Made by a program: the position numbers and the translations under genes
Shown here: piece by piece, positions 31,601-62,265 of the stretch
Layout of the letters: every line of letters begins with the position of its first letter
Numbering within the stretch: position 1 is the first letter of the stretch
Origin: Patagioenas fasciata
Lineage: Eukaryota; Chordata; Aves; Columbiformes; Columbidae
Assembly (NCBI RefSeq): GCF_037038585.1
Contig: NC_092522.1
Span: forward strand, 124,416,661 to 124,480,660
Direction of reading: 5' to 3'
DNA length: 64,000 bases
Notes under the pieces: model-generated
Told to the model about the DNA's origin: nothing
The model's input: the letters and a program-made list of their open reading frames with translations, nothing else
Databases searched by the model: none

Positions 31601-34600
31601 AAAAGGTACACATGAAATAATTCTTTGCTATAAAATATAATTTAGATGGGTTGCTCAGTAAAATATGTTAAAAGAAGAGTCCCCAAAGGTGGTGACAGTG
31701 CATGGGAGACCCCACTGCCCTCGCCAGCTGCGGGCGCATCCTCCAAAGCAAGGGGAGCATTTGCACAACTGCTGAATGTTCACTCCCTGCTGCCTGGGCT
31801 GGGGGGGGCTGGGATACCCCAGTTTGGGGGGGATCTGGTCCCTGCAAGGACCACAGGACAAGCTGAGGAGAAGGTCAGGCCCCACATTTACCTCAAACCC
31901 ACTTGAGCTCAGTGCTAGACCCGTATAGGTGACACGGGCATCTCTGCTTTATGTTCCCAGAGCTGCAAGAGGGATCATCAGCTCTGAGCAATGTAAAGTT
32001 CAGGCCAGCTCAGGACCAGGGGAACCAGTACAGACCCTGAGCTAAACAGTCAAAGGTATCTCAGGGTGGCATTTCATGGGAAGACACCCCTGGGGCAGAG
32101 GGCCCATGGGTTTTGTGGGATCCAGGCAGTTCAGGGAATATTCTGCCATCAAATCCTGGCTCGGTGTGGTGTCTGTGCCCTCAGCACCTTCATTCCACCT
32201 CACCTGAAACATCTCGTTGATTCCTTCTCCTGTTTGTGCTGATGTCTCAAAGTACAGAAAGCCCCGGCTCTCTGCCCAGAGCCGCCCCTCGCTTTCATCC
32301 ACGCTGCGGTGCTTGGTGCAGTCAATCTAGAGCAGGAGAAAACACAGAGATCAGAGATCAGACAGGGGCTGCAGCAGCAGCAGGAGGAACACAGCTCCAA
32401 GGGCGACCAGTAATCTGAACAAGGGGATCGAGTGCACCCTCAGTGAGTTTGCAGGTGACACTAAACTGGGTGGGAGTGTTGACCTGCTGGAGGGTGGGAT
32501 GGCCATACAGAGGGATCTGGACCAGCTGGATCAATGGGCTGAGGCCAGTTGTATGACCTTCAACAAGGCCAAGTGCCCAGTCCTCCACCTGGGTCACAAC
32601 AACCCCAGGAACGGTCCAGGCTTGGGGAAAGAGCAGCTGGAAAGTGCACAGCGGAAAAGGCCCTGGGGCTGTTGGTGCCAGTGGCTGAACATGAGCCAGT
32701 GTGTGCCCAGGTGGCCAAGAGGCCACCAGCAACCTGGTTGGTACCAGCACTGTGTGGCCAGCAGGCCCAGGGCAGTGACCGTCCCTGTGCTGGGACCTGG
32801 GGAGGCCAAACTGCCAGTCCTGGGGGCAGTTCTGGGCCCCTCACGCCAAGAAAGGTCTTGAGGTGCTGGAGTGAGTGGAGAGAAGGGAACGGAGCTGGTG
32901 AGGGGCTGGAGCACAAGTGTGATGGGAGCGGCTGAGGGAGCTGGGGGGTTCAGCTGGAGAACAGGAGCTGAGGGGAGACCTCCTGATCTCTGAACTGCCT
33001 GAAAGGAGCTTGGAGCCAGGGGGGTCGGGCTCTGCTCCCCAGGAACAAGCGCCAGGAGCAGAGGAAACGGCCTCAAGTTGCCCAGGGGAGGTTGAGGTTG
33101 GATGTGGGGAACAATTTCTTCCCCAAAGGGCTGTGGGGCATTGGAACAGGCTGCCCAGGGCCAGTGCTGGAGTCACCATCCCTGGAGGCATTGAACAGAG
33201 TGGAGATGAGGTTCTCAGGGACATGGGGTAATGCCAGGGTTGGGGTAATGTTTGGACTCAATGATCCTGAGGGTCTTTTCCAACCAAAATGATTTTGTGA
33301 TTCTAGGAAACGCAGCCTCCAGTGCTCCTCACACACAGATCTGGCTCTTAGGAACTCTTCTCTACAACTTAACAACATTTCCCTTGCTGCAGCTGGAACT
33401 CAAGAGCGTGGGCACAAGCTGGGACCACAAGGATCCCCAAGGGCTGGAGATGAGGATGTGACCACAGCGCATCTCCTCACCACAGCCCACCTTGTTTGCA
33501 CAGACAACGAAGACAACGTTCTCCATATTCCCGTGAGGGCCCAGCTCCTGCTTCATCTCTGCCAGCCACGCGTCCAGGGCATCAAAAGATTCCTTTTGTC
33601 CCACGTCGTAGACCAAGATGACTCCCTGAGTGTCCTTGTAAAACTCGTTCCTCACCTGCAGGGACAAAGACAGAGCACTGGCACCAGTGACAGGCAGGGT
33701 GAGAGCACATGGCCTGGAAAATTTCAGAGATCACCATTCACCTGGCACCTATTTGGCTCTGGAGTAAAAATCTCATCTCCACAGAAACAGAAGATCGCAG
33801 GAAAAGGACAGATGGGGGAAAGCAAATAATAACTTGACCATGCTGCCCCCAGGTCCATCACAGGAATGTGATCAGCCCATGAAAGGCTCATTATATGCAG
33901 AAAGAAGCACAGAGGCACAAAGGTGTCACGAACTCTTGGGGAGACTGGAAGGTCTGGGAGTTGACCAAGAGACCCATTTGCACGTGTAGATGTGTGTGTG
34001 TGTGTGTGTCTGTCCCTGTGCATGAGGCAGCGGGGCAGAGCGAGGACTGGGGGCAGCCACCCTACAGACTGATGTCTAAGCCTGGCTCTTGGAGGGATCT
34101 GCAGAATGTCTGTCTGTCTGTGCCGGTGTGTGTCAGGGGTTCTGGAACAGCAGCTGGAGTGAGGCTGGAGTGAGGCTGCAGCCTCTGGGGCTTGTACAGA
34201 ATCACAGAATAGAACCACAGGATGGTTTGGGTTGAAGGGACCTTCCCAGCTCCCGCAGTGGCACCCCTGCAATGAGCAGGGACATCTTCAGCAGCTCAAG
34301 TTGCTCAGAGCCCTGTGCAGCCTGGCCTGGGATGTCTCCAGGGATGGTTCAGCCACCACCTCTCTGCCCAACCTGGGCCAGGCTCTCACCACCCTCAGTG
34401 CAAACAATTTCTTCCTCATGTCTGGCCTGAATCTCCCCTCTTTCAGTGCTGCCCTGCATTAGGTGTCCGTGGCAGGAAAGAGGGAGGCGTGTTGTAGCAG
34501 AGGAAGCTCCCAAGAAATGTATTTTCAAGTTTCCCACCCCCAGACTCAATTTCAGGCAGATCTCAGGAAAGCTGACGAGTGTCAAACACTTCTGAGATGG

Positions 34601-46689: not shown

Positions 46690-47080
46690 GGACGCCGCGC
46701 TGGCCCCGGCTGTGGGACAGCGGGTCCCGGAGCCTCAGTTCCCCCGAACCGAACCGGGGGGGCCGCGCGGGCGGGAGGAGCTGCGGGTGGGAGGAGCCGC
46801 GGCCGTGGTGCCGCCCCCGGTTCCGCCCCCAGGACCGCCCCCGGTGCCGCCCCCCCGGTGCCGCCCCCGGCCGGCGCCGCTCGGGGAGGGGGCAGAGCCG
46901 GGCCGGGCAGCGCCGCCTGCAGCCGCACCGAGCCGGGCCGGGCCGGGCCACGCCGGGCGGCAGCGCCATGTACGGTGAGTGCCCGCGGGGCGAGCCCGGG
47001 GCCGGTACCGGGGCCGGTTCGGGGCCGTGCGCGCCCCCGCTCCCGCTTCCCGGGGACTTGGGGCTGCATCCCCCGGGGCC
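46690..47080 (+). promoter_or_regulatory. EFR3B: EFR3B CpG-island promoter with GC boxes
   Basis: Strongly CpG-rich DNA around the EFR3B first coding exon. Five CCGCCCC boxes (46811, 46823, 46835, 46847, 46861) are spaced at 12-14 bp about 100-155 bp upstream of the ATG, a classic Sp1/KLF arrangement. No TATA box is seen. The TSS is probably between about 46880 and 46960. Confidence 0.65.
46968..46974 (+). CDS. EFR3B: EFR3B coding exon 1 (7 nt)
   Basis: Only ATG, TAC and one G are coded before the donor GTGAGT. The assignment rests on the match of the joined N-terminus MYGVCGCC to the family and on the CpG-island setting. It is too short for ORF detection. Confidence 0.9.
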
Positions 47081-50000: not shown

Positions 50001-53000
50001 GTCTCTAGTTGGATCTCACTGTCCTAAGCCTGGCTTAGGGATTGGCTGCTCCGCGGGGGATTTCAAACTGTGCCTGGACTTTGGCTGGCAAAATAGCGTG
50101 TTTCCCCCTTCTTGGGGCTGTGCAATGACCTTGACAGTGGGAAAAGCCTGGTCCTTTTTGTCCCCAACCCCAAAAAACTTGCTGCTCGCTCTGTCTCCAG
50201 GACCTGTGCTTTGATTCAGGAACGAGCTCCTTGGGCAGGGACTTGGCTGTAAGGGGAGCCGGGAGCTGCGGGATGGGGTTAACACTTCCATGGGGGTTCC
50301 CATTGCTTTCCAGTCCCCCCCTACTTTTACTGTGGCCACGTGTGCCAGACAACAAACCGAATCTCGACCGCCGTTTATTTCCTCCATGTCCCCTCCCTTT
50401 GCTCTCTGGTCACCAGCACAAGCTGTCTCCTCCCACAAAGCTTGAAATAGAGAAGGTTCCCCTTTTTATTTCTATTATTTTGGTAATATTTCTTTTCGGT
50501 GGCAGCGGGAACAGGGGAAATGGGGCTTTTTCTGGGGAGGAGGCGTTGTCAGCGGTGCCATCGAGGTCCCCAGGAGCTGCCACCAAGTCACAGCCGGCAG
50601 CCGCGCGAGCGGATGGGTTTTGTGCTAAATAAATAGCTCTTGGTGGGACTGGATGGCTCAGCGGGGGATGTGAAATGCAATTAAGAATTAAGCTTTTTTT
50701 TAATTTTTCTTTTTTTTTTTTTTCCTTCTATACATTTTAACTAAATGATCTGCGAATTAATTCAACGCTCGTAGAGGAAAAGGGGCTGTTTGTGGTGCCG
50801 GCAGCGCCGGGGGCTTTTCGGACCCGCTTGGTCGTGGTTCTCGTAAGGTTTTGTGTTGAACATCAATGGCTGTGGCCAAGTCCAGGGCTTTCTTCCTGCT
50901 GCATTACCATGTCCGGGCAGGATTTGACCCCTCCCTGGCAGAGATTGTGCCAGGCCAGGGGCTGATGTTGTTCACCTCGAATCTCAGCAAGCCCGGGTGC
51001 TTAAGGGCTCTGGTAATTGCTTGTGCAATCAATAATTGCGCAAGAAAATGCCTTTCCAGAGGTGTTTGGCTCCCGGCTGTAGCTCTGCTGGGGGTATTGG
51101 AGATGTTCCCCTTCCACGGGCACTCCAAACCACCAAACTGCCAGGGTCAAGAGTCACGGATCAACCTCGGACATGAAGGTTTGGATAGGAAAGGTGAATG
51201 AGAGTGGAAATCCGATGCTTTGAGGAGGTTTACAGATGCCGGGTAAGGACCGCAGACTGCGGGTGAATTTGCAATGCCTGCGGCAAACAGAATCCTTGTG
51301 TTCAGAGTGGGCAAAGAGCTGCTCTGCAGGTGTTTGAGAGGTGTAGCGATGCGCTTTGCTTGGTTTTTGCCAGTCCGGAGCTGGTAATGCCCGGCACGTC
51401 AGCCCTGGGTGATGGAGAAACACAGAGAGAGGCGGTTGTGGTGGGGCTGGAGGGGGCTGTGTTCGCTGAAGGAGTGACCAGGAGAAAGGAGAGGAGAAAG
51501 GGAAGGGGAAGGAAAAGGGGAAAGGGAGGAAAAGGGAGGAAAAGGGGAAAGGGAGGAAAAGGGATGAAAAGGGGAAAGGGAGGAAAAGGGGGGGAAAGGA
51601 AGGAAAAGGGAGGAAAAGGGGAAAGGGAGGAAAAGGGGGGGAAAGGAGGGTAAGAAGGGGAAAGGGAGGGAAAGGGAGGAAAAGGGGAAAGGAAGGAAAA
51701 GGGGAAAGGAGGGTAAGGAGGGAAAAGGGGAAAGGGAGGAAAAGGGAGGAAAAGGGGAAAGGGAGGAAAAGGGGAAAGGGAGGAAAAGGGGGGGAAAGGA
51801 AGGAAAAGGGGGGATAAGGGGAAAGGGAGGAAAAGGGGGGGAAAGGAAGGAAAAGGGGGGATAAGGGGAAAGGGAGGAAAAGGGGAAAGGAAGGAAAAGG
51901 GAGGAAAAGGGAAAAGGGATGAAAAGGGGAAAGGAAGGAAAAGGGAGGAAAAGGGAAAAGGGATGAAAAGGGGAAAGGAAAGGGGAAAATGAGGAAAAGG
52001 GAAAGGGAGGAAAAGGGGAAAGGGAGGAAAAGGGGAAAGGAAGGAAAAGGGGGAAAAGGGGAAAGGAAGGAAAAGGGGAAAAAGGGGAAAGGGAGGAAGA
52101 GGGGGAAAAGGGGAAAGGGAGGAAAAGGGGGGAAAAGGGGAAAGGGAGGAAAAGGGGAAAGGAAGGAAAAGAGAGAAGGGAAAAGGGAAAAGAGAGAAGA
52201 AGGCAGGCTAGAGAGAAAGCGCGGCTGTGGCTGGTGCCGTCACATTTCCATCTCTGTAAATGAGGGTTTTCGCTCAGGTTTGTGCCGCAATTAGAACTGG
52301 GTGTGGGCTTGGATGTGGCGTTTCTGGGGGAAGAAGGAAACCACAGCCCCGTGCGTGGTCAGCATCTCCAAAGGGCCCTTATTGTGTGTTCTGGTGACCA
52401 TGCAAAACAGGGCGGGGGGGGCGCTTGTTGTTTCTTTTTCCTCCAAAAACCTTTCAGACTCGCGAGCCCTCCCGTGTCCTTGGCTGTTCTGCCACGTCCG
52501 GCTCTGCGCTGCGTGGCCCAAAGCTTTGGCCTTGCAAAATGAACCTTAATTAAGGTTCTTCTCTTAATGAAGCAGCTTCCGGAGGCTGGTGCTGCTGTTG
52601 GGTGGACTCTCAACCTCCATCAGAGCTTCTCCGCCTATGCGATCTGGACCAGACGCGCAAACTGGCGAACATCTCGCATCAAGCCCAGAGTTTGGGTGGA
52701 TTTCCTGCAGTTTAAGCCTTTTTCCCCCCTCAGCTTTCCCTCTGCGTGTGTTGTATAACAAAACCAGGCGCCCATTAAGGCGCTTAACTCCCCTTCTCCC
52801 CTCGAACCGGTGCCAGGTACCTGATGCAAACCTCCAGCTCTGCCTTTAATGGGTTGTTTCCCTGCCTGCAAAAGGGGCTGGTGTGGCTTTAATGCCAGAG
52901 ACTAATCACAGCTGTGAAATATTAATTAATTTGGAAGCGTTGCACGTGCGCTGCGGTGCTGGAGAAAGCTCGGAAGTGTAAATAATGGAGGGGAGAATCT

Positions 53001-56000
53001 GTCGCTGGTGTAAGTGGGAATTTGGGCTGATTTCTGTCCCACCGTGGAGTTGTTAAAGCTGGGTTTGATGCCTGAGCTGTCAGTGTTTGGAAAGGGGGGG
53101 AAGATGGGGATGAGCTGTTCAGTTCTAGGCCCCTCACACCAAGAAACCCTTGAGGTGCTGGAGCGAGAGGAGAGAAGGGAACGGAGCTGGTGAGGGGCTG
53201 GAGCACAAGTGTGATGGGAGCGGCTGAGGGAGCTGGGGGGTTCAGCTGGAGAACAGGAGCTGAGGGGAGACCTTCTGATCTCTGAACTGCCTGAAAGGAG
53301 CTTGGAGCCAGGGGGGTCGGGCTCTGCTCCCCAGGAACAAGCGCCAGGAGCAGAGGAAACGGCCTCAAGTTGCCCAGGGGAGGTTGAGGTTGGATGTGGG
53401 AACAATTTCTTCCCCAAAGGGCTGTGGGGCATTGGAACAGGCTGCCCAGGGCAGTGCTGGAGTCACCATCCCTGGAGGGTTGGACAGACGGACATGAGGT
53501 TCTCAGGGACATGGGGCAGGGACAGGAGTGCATTAACGGTTGGACTCAATGATCTTGAGGGGCTTTTCCAGCCAAATTGACTCTATGATTTTTTGCACAT
53601 CCCTGTGTGACCCCACATCTTTTGGGTCTCTCTGAGCTGTGCTCACAGCCTCAGGACAGCCCGGAGCACACAGGAGCTGTGCACCCACACATCCCAGCCC
53701 TTGCCTGAGCCCCTTCTACTGTCCAGTGCCCCATCCCTGTGCAGTCACTGGGGCGGCTGAACCGGCCTCCCAGCCCTCACCCATATCGGTGCCGGCTCAC
53801 GTCTCGGATGAGCCGCTCGGACAGGTAGGCACCGATGCGATCCAGCTTCTCCGGGGCAGAGAGGGCATAAAACGTCAGCTTCTCCATGTTGGTCTTCACC
53901 AGCCCATCCTGAAAGAGAGCAGCACAGCGCGTCACAACCTCACACCGGCCCTGGCAAACATCAGGAGCATCTCTGCAGCGGGTTCTCAGGGACATGGGGC
54001 AGTGCCAGGGGTGGGGGAATGCTTGGACTCGGTGACCTTGAGGGTCTTTTCCAACCAAAATCATTCTGTGATTAGTTGGGCAGACCCAGGTGGGATTCAG
54101 GGATGTGGCACCGGTGTGGATTCAACCTCCGGCCCTGCTCCCATTTGGGATTCCCTTCCCCAGTACAGAGCTGTGATTTGGGGCTCAGCACCCCGGCTGC
54201 GTCGGTGGCAGCAGAGAGAGCGGCGCGTGGAGCAGCGCCAGGGGAAGCTGCGAATTTAATTGCTGAGCTAAAGGGCTTTGCACCGCCGGCTCCACGCGAC
54301 GGCTGGGAGAGCGTTTCCCTGTCTGACAACGCTCCCGTCCGTCCCGCTCAGCGACGTGAGAAATGCGTCCTGGCAGCGACAGCCTTGGCTCCCCGGTCCC
54401 CAGTGTCTCTCTGCCTCAAAAGATTTCCTTGTCCCTTCGTTCCGGCGTCAAGGGACACGTCTCCCTGTGACCAGCGTTGCCTTGTGTTGCCCTCGGAGAG
54501 GGACACATCTCCCTGTGACCAACGTTGCCTTGCGCTGCCCTCCGAGGTTTGGGTCTTCTGCAACATCCCCAAAAGCGTCTCTGCCCACCGAGGAGCTGTC
54601 AGCTTTTATCAAACCCCTTTGCAGATGCTGGTTCGTACCGAAGGACACTTGGATGAACAAGGGAATGAGCTGCGCCCGTGCAGCCCGAACCCTTCAGGAA
54701 GGCTGGGAGCTGTTAATTAACATCAGCACATTGCTCTGAGTTACAGAGCTGCGAGCTGGATTCAACCCCCTCCCCAACTAAATATGGTAGAGGTTTAATG
54801 CAACCGCCCAGGGTCCCCCCCTCTTTTCACCACGGCTCTTTTCCAACACATTTTCTTTGCATTGAGCTGAACCGAACTGCTTGAGCCACCTTGGGGGGCA
54901 AAAGGAGATTGGTGGGTGCAGAAACTGCATTTTTAATGTAGGTTTTCCTGCCTCTTAATTGGTGGCAGAAGCTCAGAGCGGCACCCGAGCGAATAAGAAG
55001 AAGTGGGTCTGCGACCCCGACATCTCTTTTGGTTCCCACCACCCCTGGTAGCACCGCATCCATCCCTTCCCTCTGCTCGTTTCTTGCTTTCCCTGTTTTA
55101 TCTCCCCTTCCCGTGGGCTCCATCCCTCTGCCCTCCCCAGGGTGGATGGAGAATAGGACTAAAGTGTCTCAGGGCCAACTTGCATATTGCTCAGTGACAT
55201 TTCTAATGCATAGTGGGGACGTTTCATCCTCCTCCCCGGGCGGGCTCACCCACCGGGTGCCAAAGCACTGGTGGAGTCGGAGGGTGGATGGATGTGAAGG
55301 AGACTCTTGCTTTGTAAATGAGATTTTGCTAAGCAGATTAGGGAAAGGTCCCTGGTTGTGTGCGGGGAAGGACAGGACAGGGCTGGGCTGCCTTCGGGAT
55401 GGTGCTTTTGCTTGGGGTTGAGTGGGTGACCTTCACGGGATACTGGGTTTAATAAGGGATTTGGCGTGTTTTAATTAAGATTTATTTGCAATCAGTTGGA
55501 ATGCCCTTATTAAGTAAATTCCAGGCATCGAATACTATGCCCATAAGGTTTTCTGGCCGTGCTTATTGCCAGAGTGTTGTTAAAATGGGGATGGGATTGA
55601 CGAGGAAAGGTGGACACGTGGTCATTTTGGGAGGTGAGCTGGGCCTGTGTCCTGTTCTCAATGGGCCATATTCTGTCCCAAAACCCCAGTTACAACTGGT
55701 ACCAGCGAACCCTCCTCCTGGAAACACATGTAATGAGTTTATTCCAGAACCTCGGGGCTTGTGCCGCTGTTGGAGTGGCTAAGCGGGGGTTACACCAGCA
55801 ACCCGCAGTCACCGGGACTGGAAAAATGCAATTATCCCTCATTAGATGACTTTCTCGGCGATGAATTATTGAAGGAAAAGGTCCTTTGGCTCGCTTTGTG
55901 CCCCAGCAAGTGTGGATGTGACCCGCCGTGGCCGAGGGTGATGGTGATGAGCCAAATAAACGCCATGGGGTGTCCCAGGCGGGCGCGAGACGGAGGTGAC

Positions 56001-59000
56001 ACACATGTCATGGGCGGCCGCGGAGCCGCCGCTGCTCCCGAGCTTCCCATCTTATCCCCTTCCATACGGGGATGGTTGAGTCACGTTTCTCCCTGCCTAG
56101 ATTTACCTTATCTTTAAGCAAAGCCGTGTCCTTGCTCTCGGAGCTGCCAGCAGGAGGAGAGCGTGACGCGCCACGCCGGTCCCCGCATCCCTGGATGCTG
56201 CTGGGCTCCGAGCATCCCCCCTTGTTAGCGCAAACCAGCCACGCTTCGTGCGCCGAAACAGCAGAGATTCAGCCTCAAAACACCTCCAAAAATCCACCCT
56301 GACCCCACGCCTCGGTGCTCAACGAGATGCCCAGCGTCCCCGACCGCCCCCGCGTCCCGGTGCCGCCGCCGGCGGAGCAAACCCGGCGCGGTTCCCATCG
56401 GAGCCGCCCCGGGTGACTCAGCAGCGCTGGCTGAAAAACTCCCTTCTTTATTTAAACGCCGGCTCCTCGCTCCACTGAGCATCTCCCCGCAGCGATGCTG
56501 CCGCCGGCCCAGGAGCAGAGCGCTACCCGGTGCCTTGAGCCCCCCGGTTTGCTCCGGAGATGATGGCTCTGAGCAGCTGGGCTCTCAGCCCCGCACTGCG
56601 GCTCTGTGTTGCCGGCCCTGCCTGCTCCTGGGAGATGCTGCACGTGGCCGGAGCAGGTACCGTCCCCTCATTTTGTGCTTTATCCCCCCGGGGTGTTGGG
56701 TTGGATCTGCAGGGAGGGACAAGCTGCTGTGGTTACCGGTGACCTTCAGTGTCATCTTTCTATTTTACTCATTTATTTTTAAATACCTCGTGCCAGCGTT
56801 GCAGCCGCAGGGTCCCCCCCGGTGCCACCGCGTTGGTGCCTCGCTCAGGGGTGGTGGATGGGGACGGCGTGGTGGGTGCGAGAGGAAAACAGCGTCTGGA
56901 AAAACAGAATCGTAGAAATAAAGCCAAAAATTAATGTCTGAGAGCCTTTTAAGGGGGGAGTTGTTGCCAGCCCCAGCGTTAAGGTTTGGTGCTGTTAGGG
57001 GCTGGGTGGGGGTCCCATCCAGACCTGATTTCAGCCCTGGAATCAGGGCCAGACTCGGGTTTGTTGTTCTCTGGAAAGTCCTTGGAGCGGGGAAACAAAA
57101 CAAGGGAGATATTTCCTCTTTCCTCAAGGTCTGTGCCATTTTTACTCTGTGTTTTTGAGGGATTTCTGCTCCCTCTGTCTGTGCGTGTGTGTCGGGCAGA
57201 ACCGAGAGCAGGCAGAGGTTTGGGGCAGGAAAGTTGTTCTCGGTTTGATGCCAGAGACCCCTCAGGGAGCTCAACCCTCTCACCGGACACCAGAGGCTCC
57301 TTTGGAGACCTTGTCCTTCTACTGGGCCGTGCTGGGACCTCACCGGTGGCTTTGGGTCCCATCCGGACCATCTCTGTCCCCCCACACCATGGGTCCCCCA
57401 AGTCCCCTCTCCTGGCAGGTGATTCGGGTCTTGGTCTCTCTCCCGCTGCTGAATTTCTTTAGGTGAGGCCTTAAAAATCTGCTTCTGGAAGGAGAGGTCG
57501 TGTTAGGTGAGATGGAAGGCATTAACTTTAATTATGCAGTTATTATTGATGGGATCCGTGCTGTGTCTGCTCCTCAGCTTCATTCATCAGGATGAGGGTG
57601 GGGGATTGGGAACGCGGTTGGGCTCTATGCTCCTTTCCCCGGGCTAGAAATGTACGTTCATCCTGAAAATACTCCAAAGTCACATTTCTGGAGGTGAGAT
57701 AATCACTGAAGAGGCTGCAGGAGGTGGAGGGGACCTGGTCTCTTGGGTAATGGGATCATTTATGGGGAAAATGTCCAGGGAGAGCTCATGGCCCCTGCTG
57801 AGACACCAGCAGGGATGCACAGTGGGGTAAATCACGCTGCCTTGTCCAGGCTGAAGGGAATTGATGAAGACAATGCAGGAGATCATCAGACGCTCATTTG
57901 TGTGAAAGGCAAACGAGGATTTATTAAGAGGCCCGTTTAAAGGCACTTTGGAAAAAGCAAAATCGATGGCGAGCAGCTGAGAAGGGAGGAGGGAGAGCGG
58001 CCGTCGCGAGGCTCGGAAATCAAATATTTGCTAGCGGGAAGGCGCGGGGGGTTTGCAAAGGAGCTCTGTGCTGGGAGTGCTGGGCCTGGGGACCCCAAAG
58101 GGGACCCCAAAACGAGCGTCCACCTCCCCTGTGTGAGCACATGGGTGGCGGGAGCTGGCACGAGCAGCCGTGAGCTCATGCGTTCCAAGCGGAGCGATCC
58201 CCGGCTCCCGCCGCCGCAGCCTTTGTCCCCCCGGCTTCCGCGTCTCGCCGGCGCTTGCCAAAAAGCAGCCCCGGATTACTCGGCTTCCCCGGGCTCACAA
58301 AAGCCAACAGTTGGCGGGGGCTGACCCCAAGCTCCTCGGTGGGCGCAGCACCCCAGGAACACCAGGTGTGCTGGAGCAGGGGGTCCAGGCGTGCGAAGCC
58401 CTCGGAGCGGCGCTGGGGAGGGCAGCGTGTCCAGCAATCTTATTTTCTTTCCCCTTTTTTAAAAGAAACAAACTCTGTAGATATTAATCAGTGTCTGGGA
58501 GGCCGGGCAGCGCTGGTACGGCTTTCCACGGGGGGTGTAGCAGCGTGGAGGTGCCCAGGGGTGCTGAACCCTCTGCTGCTGCCACTGTCCCCATGCTTGG
58601 TGTGTGTGGGAGCACAACGGATGCTCAGGAGCCCTCCTGGACCACTGGCCACCCCCAAACTGAAGATTGGAGCATCCCTGGCTGCTGTGGAGCATGAGAA
58701 ATGGGATGTGGCACAGAGATAAATACCCAGGTTGTAAACCCCTTCCTCAACACCCCCCTGAAAGCAGAGCAGGGGATTGCGGCCACATTTTGACATTTGG
58801 TGGCCAGGGCTCATTGCTCTGAGTCGGGAGGAGGGTGATGCCCGGCTTTTGCTGCTCTGTGAAGTTGCTGCTACAAGAGGTTTTGCCTCAAGGCTTGTGC
58901 ATCAGGGACAGGCTGCTGGCACAGAAATTGAGGGTGGGGATGGTTGTGTCGCTGTCCTGCAAAACACAGGTCACTTGGTGTCCCCTCGGGGGAGAGGGAC

Positions 59001-60588
59001 CGCGGTCCGGCAGCCCAAAGGTAGGGGGGCAGTCAGAGGGGTTTGGTGATTCTCAACAGCTCAGCGCTGGAGCTGCAAACAGGAAAAGCGCGTTTTCCTT
59101 TCGTAGCCTTCATAAAATGCTCTCTCTTCGTTCTCTATCGCCGTCTCCAGCAGCCCGAGCTCTCGTCGTCACTGCACGGGGCAGGGTGTGAGTGATGTGG
59201 CCTCGGGTGAGCGAGCGGAGGAAAGAGCTCGTGGGCTGAGCACCCGCGAAAGAGGATCTTGCAAGACACAGAGGCCCAGATGTAGCGGAACTTGGGACAT
59301 CGTGGTCTCTGGTGGTTGCTTTCTTGGGCGAGAAAAGCAGATAACCCTGCAGTCCTACGTCAAACGATGCTGGTCGCCTGCCAGTTCCCTGCCTCTCAGC
59401 TGTGATTTTCTTCCCTTGTGTGTCTTTTTGGCTGCGAAACTCTGGGATGTCATCAGCTTGGTGCCATGTCCTCATCTCAGGCTTCCCCGCTGAATCCAAG
59501 GATGCGTTTTCCACCAAAGGCACCTTCAGGCAGGGGATTGCCCGGGAGGTGAGGGTCGTGTCCTGCTCACCGGCTCTGTCTCGTCTCTTGCAGGCGTGTG
59601 CGGCTGCTGCGGTGCCCTGCGGCCTCGCTACAAGAGACTCGTCGACAACATCTTCCCCGAGGACCCGGAGGTAGAGGAGATGCTGCTTCGCTAAGGGCTT
59701 GGGTTGCAGGGATGTGGTGTGACTTCCAGAAACAGCTCCTGGGAGGCGGGGGATGCTTTGGCTCCATTGAATCACAGATGGTTTGGGTTGAAGGGACCTT
59801 CCCAGCTCCCCCAGTCCCCCCTGCCATGAGCAGGGACATCTTCAGCAGCTCAGGTTGCTCAGAGCCCCGTCCAGCCTGGCCTGGGATGTCTCCAGGGATG
59901 GTTCAGCCACCACCTCTCTGCCCAACCTGGGCCAGGCTCTCACCACCCTCAGCACAAACAATTTCATTATATCCATCCTGAATTTCCCTCCTTTAGTTTA
60001 AAACCATCACCCCTTGTCCTATCACAACAGGCCCTGCTCAAAAGTCTGTCCCCATCTTTCTCATGGGCCCATTTTAAGTCCGGAAAGGCCACAATGAAGT
60101 CTCCCCGAGCTTCTCTTCTCCAACTGAACACCCCAGCTCTCTCAGCCTGTCCTCCCAGCAGAGCTGTTCCAGCCTCGGATCATTCCTGGGGCTCCTCTGG
60201 CCCCTCTCCAGCAGCTCCATGTCCGTCCCTGTCCCCTGTAGGGCTGGGACGTTGCTCGAGGCTGACAAATGGTTCTTGTTGTATGTACAGTGTGGGGTGC
60301 TCAGTGGAAGCCCAGCTGAGGTTAAATATGATCCTCCTTTGCTTTTCCTGTTGTACAAAGTGTGGGGAAGCACTGGGACAGGACCAGCGAGCCAAGGTGT
60401 GCTCCTGATGTTTGCCAGGGCCGGTGTGAGGTTGTGACGCGCTGTGCTGCTCTCTTTCAGGATGGGCTGGTGAAGACCAACATGGAGAAGCTGACATTTT
60501 ATGCCCTCTCTGCCCCGGAGAAGCTGGATCGCATCGGTGCCTACCTGTCCGAGCGGCTCATCCGAGACGTGAGCCGGCACCGATATGG
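46968..60588 (+). CDS. EFR3B: EFR3 homolog B (5' part: exons 1-3; continues beyond window)
   Basis: EFR3B anchors the PI4KA-TTC7-FAM126 complex at the plasma membrane for PI4P synthesis. Three coding exons are present: 46968-46974 (ATG TAC G), 59594-59670 and 60461-60588, joined by GT-AG introns of 12.6 kb and 0.8 kb. The joined start reads MYGVCGCCGALRPRY, with Cys5, Cys7 and Cys8 as the family palmitoylation sites, then KRLVDNIFPEDPE and DGLVKTNMEKLTFYALSAPE, the beginning of the armadillo/HEAT-like helical domain. Exon 3 ends in phase 2 (GG) before GTGAGG. Only about 70 of ~817 residues are in the window; the remaining exons lie to the right. Exon 3 has an antisense copy in intron 1 (53781-53908). 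Confidence 0.94.
47085..47585. repeat. ~75-bp tandem array at the start of EFR3B intron 1
   Basis: About 6-7 units, each with a TTTACAGGGCTGTGCATCCC-like core, then GTTACTGGGGGTGACC, CTCTTTGGGTTTGGGGGG and an ACCTTGGTC-like end. It begins about 110 bp after the exon 1 donor. More degenerate traces (TATATAGGGCTCTTC, ATATAGGCCTGTGTACCCC) continue to about 47960. Confidence 0.85.
47961..49692 (+). other. EFR3B intron 1, 5' segment
   Basis: GC-rich intronic DNA after the 75-bp array. No exon-like segment fitting the EFR3 protein, no CR1 and no clear repeat. Confidence 0.45.
49693..49945 (-). mobile_element. CR1 LINE fragment (EFR3B intron 1)
   Basis: CTCATAGTTTGGGTGGGAAG through AAAACCATCACCTCTTGTCC. 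Confidence 0.9.
49946..51479 (+). other. EFR3B intron 1, middle segment
   Basis: Unique intronic DNA with T-rich runs at about 50694-50723. No coding exon recognised. Confidence 0.45.
51480..52205. repeat. GA-rich polypurine tract (EFR3B intron 1)
   Basis: About 720 bp of almost pure purine built from AGGAAAAGGGGAAAGGG units. Long mirror-symmetric purine runs can form triplex (H-DNA) and are error-prone in replication and sequencing. Confidence 0.95.
53123..53590 (+). mobile_element. CR1 LINE fragment in the left inverted-duplication arm
   Basis: CACACCAAGAAACCCTTGAG to CCAGCCAAATTGACTCTATG. It shares its atypical 3' end with the CR1 at 60807, marking both as the same original insertion. 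Confidence 0.9.
53781..53908 (-). pseudogene. Antisense duplicate of EFR3B exon 3
   Basis: A full-length, uninterrupted copy of EFR3B exon 3 with both splice sites (CTTTCAG acceptor, GG|GTGAGG donor) on the minus strand inside EFR3B intron 1. It encodes the identical peptide and differs by one synonymous base. It cannot be used by the EFR3B transcript in this orientation and is a by-product of the ~0.85-kb inverted duplication. Confidence 0.9.
53975..54075 (+). mobile_element. CR1 LINE 3' fragment at the duplication border
   Basis: GCGGGTTCTCAGGGACATGG to CCAACCAAAATCATTCTGTG. Its truncated 5' end coincides with the border of the inverted duplication. Confidence 0.85.
54451..54546. repeat. 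Two-copy 48-bp tandem duplication
   Basis: Units 54451-54498 and 54499-54546 (AGGGACACGTCTCCCTGTGA and AGGGACACATCTCCCTGTGA starts) differ at a few positions. It lies in EFR3B intron 1. Confidence 0.8.
54550..59593 (+). other. EFR3B intron 1, 3' segment
   Basis: About 5 kb of unique intronic DNA free of CR1. A CpG-rich patch at 56150-56420 and AT-rich patches at 55440-55520 and 57520-57550 are visible. No further EFR3B exon is found before 59594. Confidence 0.45.
59594..59670 (+). CDS. EFR3B: EFR3B coding exon 2 (palmitoylation motif)
   Basis: Begins after CTCTTGCAG and encodes (G)VCGCCGALRPRYKRL and VDNIFPEDPE, ending in phase 0 before GTAGAG. The clustered cysteines and following basic residues give membrane attachment in EFR3 proteins. 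It is flanked on both sides by the arms of the inverted duplication. Confidence 0.94.
59766..60235 (-). mobile_element. CR1 LINE fragment (EFR3B intron 2)
   Basis: AATCACAGATGGTTTGGGTT through CCTCTCCAGCAGCTCCATGT. Confidence 0.9.
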
Positions 60589-61270
60589 GTGAGGGCTGGG
60601 AGGCCGGTTCAGCCGCCCCAGTGACTGCACAGGGATGGGGCACTGGACAGTAGAAGGGGCTCAGGCAAGGGCTGGGATGTGTGGGTGCACAGCTCCTGTG
60701 TGCTCCGGGCTGTCCTGAGGCTGTGAGCACAGCTCAGAGAGACCAGAGCGTGTCCTGCCTCCCAAAGTGAGGTGTGGGATCACGCAGGGATGTGCAAGCT
60801 CCTTATCATAGAGTTAATTTGGCTGGAAAAACCCCTCAAGATCATCGAATCCAACCATAACCCACCCTGGCACTGCCGCATGTCCTGAGAACCTCATGTC
60901 CGTCTGTCCAGCCCTCCAGGGATGGTGACTCCAGCACTGCCCTGGGCAGCCTGTTCCAATGCCCCACAGCCCTTTGGGGAAGAAATTGTTCCCAGATCCA
61001 ACCTCAACCTCCCCTGGCGCAACTTGAGGCCGTTTCCTCTGCTCCTGGCGCTTGTTCCTGGGGAGCAGAGCCCGACCCCCCTGGCTCCAAGCTCCTTTCA
61101 GGCAGTTCAGAGATCAGAAGGTCTCCCCTCAGCTCCTGTTCTCCAGCTGAACCCCCCAGCTCCCTCAGCCGCTCCCATCACACTTGTGCTCCAGCCCCTC
61201 ACCAGCTCCGTTCCCTTCTCTCCACTCACTCCAGCACCTCAAGGTCTTTCTTGGCGTGAGGGGCCCAGAA
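60398..61270 (+). repeat. Inverted duplication, right arm (EFR3B exon 3 locus)
   Basis: The partner of 53120-53972, with about 6.4 kb between the arms including EFR3B exon 2. The left boundary is where similarity stops at CAGGAGCA (60398-60405 / about 53971). The right boundary falls inside a CR1 that is longer in this copy. This is the parental copy, since it holds exon 3 in gene orientation. Confidence 0.9.
60461..60588 (+). CDS. EFR3B: EFR3B coding exon 3
   Basis: Acceptor CTCTCTTTCAG, donor GG|GTGAGG. Encodes DGLVKTNMEKLTFYALSAPE, KLDRIGAYLSERLIRDVSRH and RYG, conserved in EFR3A/B. A 128-nt copy on the other strand at 53781-53908 differs at a single visible position (a silent ACA/ACG Thr codon). 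Confidence 0.95.
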
Positions 61271-61425
61271 CTGCCCCAGGATTGGCGGTTTGGCCTCCCC
61301 AGGTCCCAGCACAGGGACGGTCACTGCCCTGGGCCTGCTGGCCACACCAGTGCTGCTACCAGCCAGGATGCTGGTGGCCTCTTGGCCACCTGGGCACGCA
61401 CTTGCTCGTGTTCAGTTACCTAAGC
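60807..61425 (-). mobile_element. CR1 LINE fragment in the right inverted-duplication arm
   Basis: ATCATAGAGTTAATTTGGCT to TTGGCCACCTGGGCACGCAC. Longer at its 5' side than the copy at 53123. Confidence 0.9.
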
Positions 61426-61787: not shown

Positions 61788-62265
61788 TCCTCAGCACAGG
61801 ACACACATGGAGCTGCTGGAGAGGGGCCAGAGGAGCCCCAGGAATGATCCGAGGCTGGAACAGCTCTGCTGGGAGGACAGGCTGAGAGAGTTGGGGGGTT
61901 CAGCTGGAGAAGAGAAGCTCCGGGGAGACCTTAGTGCGGCCTTTCTGGACTTAAAAGGGGCCAAGAAGAAAGATGGGGACAGACTTTTGAGCAGGGCCTG
62001 TTGTGATAGGACAAGGGGTGATGGTTTTAAAGTAAAGGATGGAGATTCAGGATGGATATAATGAAATTGTTTGTGCTGAGGGTGGTGAGAGCCTGGCCCA
62101 GGTTCCCATAGAGGTGGTGGCTGAACCATCCCTGGAGACATCCCAGGCCAGGCTGGACGGGGCTCTGAGCAACCTGAGCTGGTGAAGATGTCCCTGCTCA
62201 TGGCAGGGATGCCACTGCGGGAGCTGGGAAGGTCCCTTCAACCCAAACCATTCTATGATGAGGTG
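61788..62265 (+). mobile_element. CR1 LINE fragment (EFR3B intron 3)
   Basis: AGGTCCTCAGCACAGGACAC through AACCCAAACCATTCTATGAT. Confidence 0.9.

Follow-up and report, generated by a model that had tools for sequence, protein, structure and literature searches.

Why does intron 1 of EFR3B carry an antisense copy of the gene's own exon 3, how did this copy arise, and does it affect the gene? These questions are raised by a stretch of 64,000 nucleotides (the window), located on C3 of the 1.45-Gb assembly, for which the initial annotation had described an inverted duplication with exon 2 enclosed between its arms. CR1 density, genome size and the presence of small chromosomes point to a bird.

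Exon layout and the inverted exon 3 block

The following features define the gene and the two blocks.

46968-46974, plus strand: EFR3B exon 1, coding part (ATGTACG, then GTGAGT)
53625-53969, minus strand: inverted copy of the exon 3 block, 344/345 identical to 60400-60744
53781-53908, minus strand: antisense copy of the complete EFR3B exon 3, 128 nt, one synonymous difference
59594-59670, plus strand: EFR3B exon 2, 77 nt, with a VCGCCG motif, between the arms
60400-60744, plus strand: right (original) exon 3 block, 345 nt
60461-60588, plus strand: EFR3B exon 3, 128 nt, TTTCAG upstream and GTGAGG downstream

Exons 1, 2 and 3 are in frame when joined, and the product reads MYGVCGCCGALRPRYKRLVDNIFPEDPEDGLVKTNMEKLTFYALSAPEKLDRIGAYLSERLIRDVSRHRYG. 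This exon order places the left arm in intron 1, with exon 2 between the arms, as had been annotated. For exon 1, ATGTAYGGTRNG was matched once in the window; 5 of 100 shuffles gave a match too. Exon 2 presumably encodes the modified (palmitoylated) cysteines. A human EFR3B sequence, used as a probe, gave 18 matches in 144 kb (the window and downstream DNA). Exon 2 was matched once, exon 3 twice (once per arm), and the 15 further matches lie downstream and correspond, in order, to residues 72-714 of the probe. The match of the exon 2-3 peptide to Pfam EFR3_ARM was below threshold (E 5.7e-5, 23.9 bits, cut-off 27.6). In the whole assembly, the exon 3 peptide was found in both arms and in an EFR3A-like exon on C2 (86%). 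We take the gene to be EFR3B and the match on C2 to be EFR3A from sequence comparison rather than from an annotated record. EFR3 proteins are palmitoylated and anchor the PI4KA complex, according to PMC11661448.

BLAST pairs 53120-53969 with 61273-60400 on the minus strand (877 columns, 93.8%). The core blocks, each of 345 nt and 6430 nt apart, differ by one mismatch. This alignment and the 344/345 core confirm the inverted duplication at its annotated place. Reverse complementarity, which had been annotated for the whole length of the arms, is near-perfect in the 345-nt block, whereas 53503-53624 is strongly diverged and about 20 nt are absent from the left arm. The left arm does contain exon 3 in full. 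Both splice sites are present in the inverted copy, and its translation is identical at 43/43 residues, without a stop. The lone block mismatch at 53873 (C versus T) sets ACG against ACA in an exon 3 codon and is synonymous. Its polarity was sought in the EFR3A-like paralogue, an approach that was dropped because the paralogue carries ACT and is uninformative.

The copied block covers exon 3 together with adjoining sequence of introns 2 and 3 and is thus unspliced and DNA-like. When 53591-53978 was used as a query against the whole assembly, two places were returned, both of them the arms themselves. From the length and identity of the block we conclude that a chance match is excluded. Seven repeat pairs with a two-copy stretch of at least 60 bp were found in the 144 kb; three are inverted, and among these the exon 3 pair is the only one with a recognised exon.

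Two other repeat features of the gene are recorded here. A direct repeat of 848 bp, 98% identical, lies within EFR3B downstream of the window (L032:6891-7736 and L034:1873-2719) and, over at least 117 bp, has no third copy in the 144 kb analysed. Within intron 1, purine-rich tracts of the GGGAAAAGGGG type precede the left arm at 51500-52219.

CR1 sequences and the limits of the copied tract

Both arms extend from the exon 3 block into sequences of the CR1 family.

53120-53563, plus strand: left CR1 copy, apparently 5'-truncated, with a variable 5' part, the core and the first half of its own tail
53564-53624, plus strand: CR1-side end of the copied tract (right CR1 tail end and unique spacer), diverged
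53970-53980, plus strand: filler of 11 nt between the exon 3 block and the second CR1 tail, unlike the right locus
53981-54072, plus strand: second CR1 tail, 92 bp, same orientation, beginning near the family core/tail border
60745-60829, plus strand: spacer and right CR1 tail end, putative template for the diverged stretch of the left arm
60805-61415, minus strand: right CR1 copy, its 5' end longer than that of the left copy

A CR1 element shared by descent had been counted as part of the duplication. This was not supported, the CR1 segments being no closer to each other than to other copies. Left and right CR1 differ at 5/63 sites in the 5' part (pair rank 14/36), at 2/320 in the near-invariant core, which in the left copy is 53183-53502 (rank 14/118), and at 13/58 in the first tail half, 53503-53563 (rank 107/135). 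The ranks are based on 17 hand-picked longer CR1 copies, both arms included, plus the second tail, and are restricted to pairs that cover 70% or more of the sites. In each CR1 segment other copies equal or beat the right copy in closeness to the left one; for the left core, the equal or closer relatives differ at 0/282, 1/244, 2/320 and 2/320 sites. At 53564-53590, the two arms differ at 2/27 sites and are mutual nearest neighbours (rank 5/105). Because the arms are mutually nearest only from about 53564 onward, the copied tract measures about 406 bp, not 853 bp. A single 853-bp duplication with a shared CR1 was rejected, the ranks of the 5' part and the first tail half speaking against it. 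CR1 3' transduction that copied body and flank in one piece was rejected as well, since the left 5' part and first tail half show no special kinship with the right CR1.

Most simply, judged from these segment comparisons, the CR1 parts of the arms would belong to an abundant family and have arisen independently of each other. The core, taken by itself, cannot settle the matter. Here the left-right pair is among the closer pairs, and common descent of this segment is possible. Identity of the core was also considered as proof of age and dropped, since unselected copies are near-invariant as well (20 of 42 matches, together with copies in the window and in L032-L039). The body of the right CR1 differs from the family consensus at 1/340 sites.

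Copies of this CR1 family occur in the window, for example at 53120-53590, 60805-61415, 32685-33301 and 1398-1892, and also in L032-L045. Similarity matches amounted to 51 HSPs, with the right copy itself left out; the CR1 profile comprised 29 copies including the right one (identity above 86%, length above 160). Of the roughly 320 bp of the core, 29 sites show singletons only and 5 are shared variable sites, and of the last 88 bp or so, 34/88 sites carry shared variants and 25 singletons only. Mean divergence from the consensus was 1.0% in the core and 11% in the tail for 13 long copies, and 3.2% and 11%, respectively, for 17 short copies. The contrast is not universal, as two copies show no tail differences (over 10 and 37 tail sites). 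Tail exchange in reverse transcription could produce such a contrast, and so could homogenisation of the core. As a test for length-dependent gene conversion of CR1 cores, length was compared with core divergence among 30 copies with an identity of at least 82% that reach the 3' end of the core. The two were correlated (Spearman -0.64, p 1e-4), but for the 3' 100 bp of the core the value was -0.27 (p 0.15), so that such conversion is possible but not established.

The copied tract thus appears to comprise 53564-53969 and to be set between two CR1 tails. Its left spacer aligns to 60771-60795 (25 positions, 3 mismatches), and the window contains no other match that could serve as an alternative template. 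On the opposite side, the filler 11-mer occurs only once in the window when both strands are considered. Junction bases of the kind described for class 2 templated insertions are therefore present and, as judged within the window only, non-templated, whereas the other junction of the tract falls within CR1 homology. The second CR1 tail differs from the left CR1 tail at 13/61 sites and could be an unrelated insertion. The flanks of 53120 and 54072, compared by eye for the target-site duplication that a LINE-mediated insertion (class 1 templated sequence insertion or CR1 3' transduction) may leave, have at most AGTT in common; CR1 elements often lack target-site duplications.

Divergence within the tract is a mosaic. 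The CR1-side end has 4 substitutions in 51 aligned bases, all transitions, plus two indels, in contrast to 1/345 in the block. Fisher's test gives p = 0.001 for the substitutions and p = 3e-5 when the indels are added (6 versus 1), values that are optimistic because the split points were chosen after the alignment was seen. The 95% confidence interval is 0.01-1.6% for the block and 2.5-31% for the spacer (3/25), and even at the upper limit of the block, 3 or more substitutions among 25 sites would have a probability of 0.008. Such a mosaic would fit gene conversion and also an error-prone junction.

Origin of the copy

Before a biological origin is discussed, an assembly artefact has to be considered, in which a chimeric or foldback read led to exon 3 sequence being joined, inverted, into intron 1. 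The locus comes from a single assembly, and a false copy would show near-identity just as the block does. However, the arms differ by the block substitution, the four adjacent substitutions, two indels and the filler. These are differences that a duplicated piece of assembly should not have, and an assembly error is therefore improbable. Against it also stand the second CR1 tail with variants of its own, the absence of any N in the window and the distance of 6.4 kb between the blocks, which is unlike a simple foldback.

With slightly better than even confidence, we favour a CR1-associated templated insertion that placed the copy, inverted, in the CR1-rich DNA of intron 1. The observations behind it are a two-copy block, CR1 bodies without special kinship, a switch near 53564, a filler and a second tail. 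The source, about 406 bp, would extend from inside the CR1 tail of intron 3 through exon 3 and back to 60400. We infer template switching between inversely oriented CR1 tails because one join lies inside CR1 homology and the other consists of the filler and a CR1 tail. DNA repair or replication could have provided the route; alternatively, reverse transcription may have jumped between CR1 and antisense EFR3B RNA. Since the copy carries the junction of the right CR1 with its flank, copying postdates insertion of the right CR1. That insertion, given a body only 1/340 from the consensus, is itself young or was recently homogenised. Beyond this, we infer both the direction and the age of copying: the event would be recent, its junction made by error-prone synthesis, or else older and followed by gene conversion that made the block alike again. 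What fits poorly with a simple recent copy is the 61-bp CR1-side end, which is too diverged.

This divergence leads to the second biological explanation, an older inverted duplication in which gene conversion from arm to arm subsequently made the exon 3 blocks alike again. It is a possible but rather doubtful origin, and in our view it is just as doubtful that 53564-53624 is an unconverted remnant retaining the original divergence. Conversion would leave a near-identical block (1/345) beside a diverged spacer (3/25), and the CR1-side substitutions are all transitions, as expected from ageing. A precedent is provided by the arms of IDS and IDSP1, which recombine and are 100% identical in exon 3, as given in PMC11610362. 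Nevertheless, the argument is based on four substitutions and two indels, the conversion tract would need to end exactly where homology ends (53969), and the right CR1 looks young, unless the CR1 cores were homogenised too. A single insertion is favoured for two reasons: the block extends exactly as far as the homology does, and the right CR1 is so little diverged.

RNA consequences and comparison with known systems

A hairpin, circular RNA, ADAR editing, an antisense exon and inversion had all been suggested as consequences of the duplication, and from the sequence each is possible in principle. The computed duplex of the blocks comprises 344 pairs with -824 kcal/mol; for the whole arms the value is -1876 versus -522 for one shuffled right arm. 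Since exon 3 itself lies in the right arm, a hairpin would hide the splice sites of this exon, which would be in more direct danger than exon 2, the exon originally named. Skipping of either exon shifts the frame because 77 and 128 nt are not multiples of three; this statement is derived from the exon lengths, and the exon 1-3 join was translated.

The strong duplex could be taken as a sign of a functional pair, in which base pairing between the intron 1 copy and exon 3 in the pre-mRNA would control how exon 3 is used. In C. elegans, reverse complementary matches in flanking introns promote back-splicing and skipping, as reported in PMC8330042. Yet loss of exon 2 or exon 3 breaks the reading frame, and pairing would face competition from another inverted, CR1-like pair that lies closer to exon 3. 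We therefore consider such regulation very unlikely, and no less so the outcomes that could be named for it (skipping of exon 3, circularisation of exon 2 and editing). Hardly credible, finally, is a copy kept identical by repeated gene conversion that acts as an antisense switch for exon 3, where the transcribed right arm would fold onto the left one, mask the exon 3 splice sites and tune full-length EFR3B.

The nearer inverted pair consists of 59778-60228 and 61799-62251. It is 93-98% complementary in pieces, closely flanks exon 3 and is partly CR1-like (78-80% match to the right CR1). This pair might by itself favour exon 3 circularisation or skipping.

On the evidence of the DNA, the intron 1 copy is most likely functionless, and the effects to be predicted for it are liabilities, namely an RNA duplex and a substrate for conversion or inversion. 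If the copy is real and fixed, the locus would be a natural case of an exon and its near-identical antisense copy in one pre-mRNA, and RNA-seq could directly show whether a near-perfect 345-bp duplex disturbs splicing of the exon. EFR3B would then be at risk of inversion in this lineage, and an unselected copy could write mutations into a coding exon.

In the open-licence literature, searched mostly by titles and abstracts, no description of an inverted exon 3 copy in EFR3B was found. Likewise, this literature yielded nothing on CR1 template switching and, among the papers listed, no case by title or abstract of CR1 with gene conversion or inverted exon duplication and nothing on an inverted copy for EFR3B circRNA.

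IDS and IDSP1 are known from the inversions of Hunter syndrome. According to PMC11610362, IDSP1 is an inverted partial copy of human IDS with a 100% identical exon 3 and recurrent inversions; table 3 lists 130 families with type 1 homologous recombination (inversion) and 2 families with type 2 (conversion and excision). The likeness to EFR3B is a nearby inverted partial gene copy with near-identical exon 3 and intron sequence. In EFR3B, near-identity is found in the block (344/345), not in the 61 bp on the CR1 side. IDSP1 is described as lying outside its gene, 3.9 kb off, and as containing exons 2 and 3 and introns 2, 3 and 7, whereas the EFR3B copy lies inside intron 1 of its own gene, measures about 406 bp and is known from one assembly.

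Class 2 templated sequence insertions (TSIP), as characterised in PMC5110952, are short segments from elsewhere with non-templated bases or microhomology at the junctions and without target-site duplication. The EFR3B copy resembles these in being a short inserted segment with an 11-nt filler at one junction. It differs in that its source is 6.4 kb off in the same gene and its junctions lie in or beside CR1 tails; the TSIP described there are human. With the inverted repeats that promote circRNA formation and skipping (PMC8330042), EFR3B shares long complementary arms around exon 2. In contrast to them, one EFR3B arm holds an exon with its splice sites, and the case is known from DNA alone. 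IDS/IDSP1 is the closest known case, and class 2 templated insertions are the nearest precedent for the origin. The EFR3B case belongs to known types of rearrangement.
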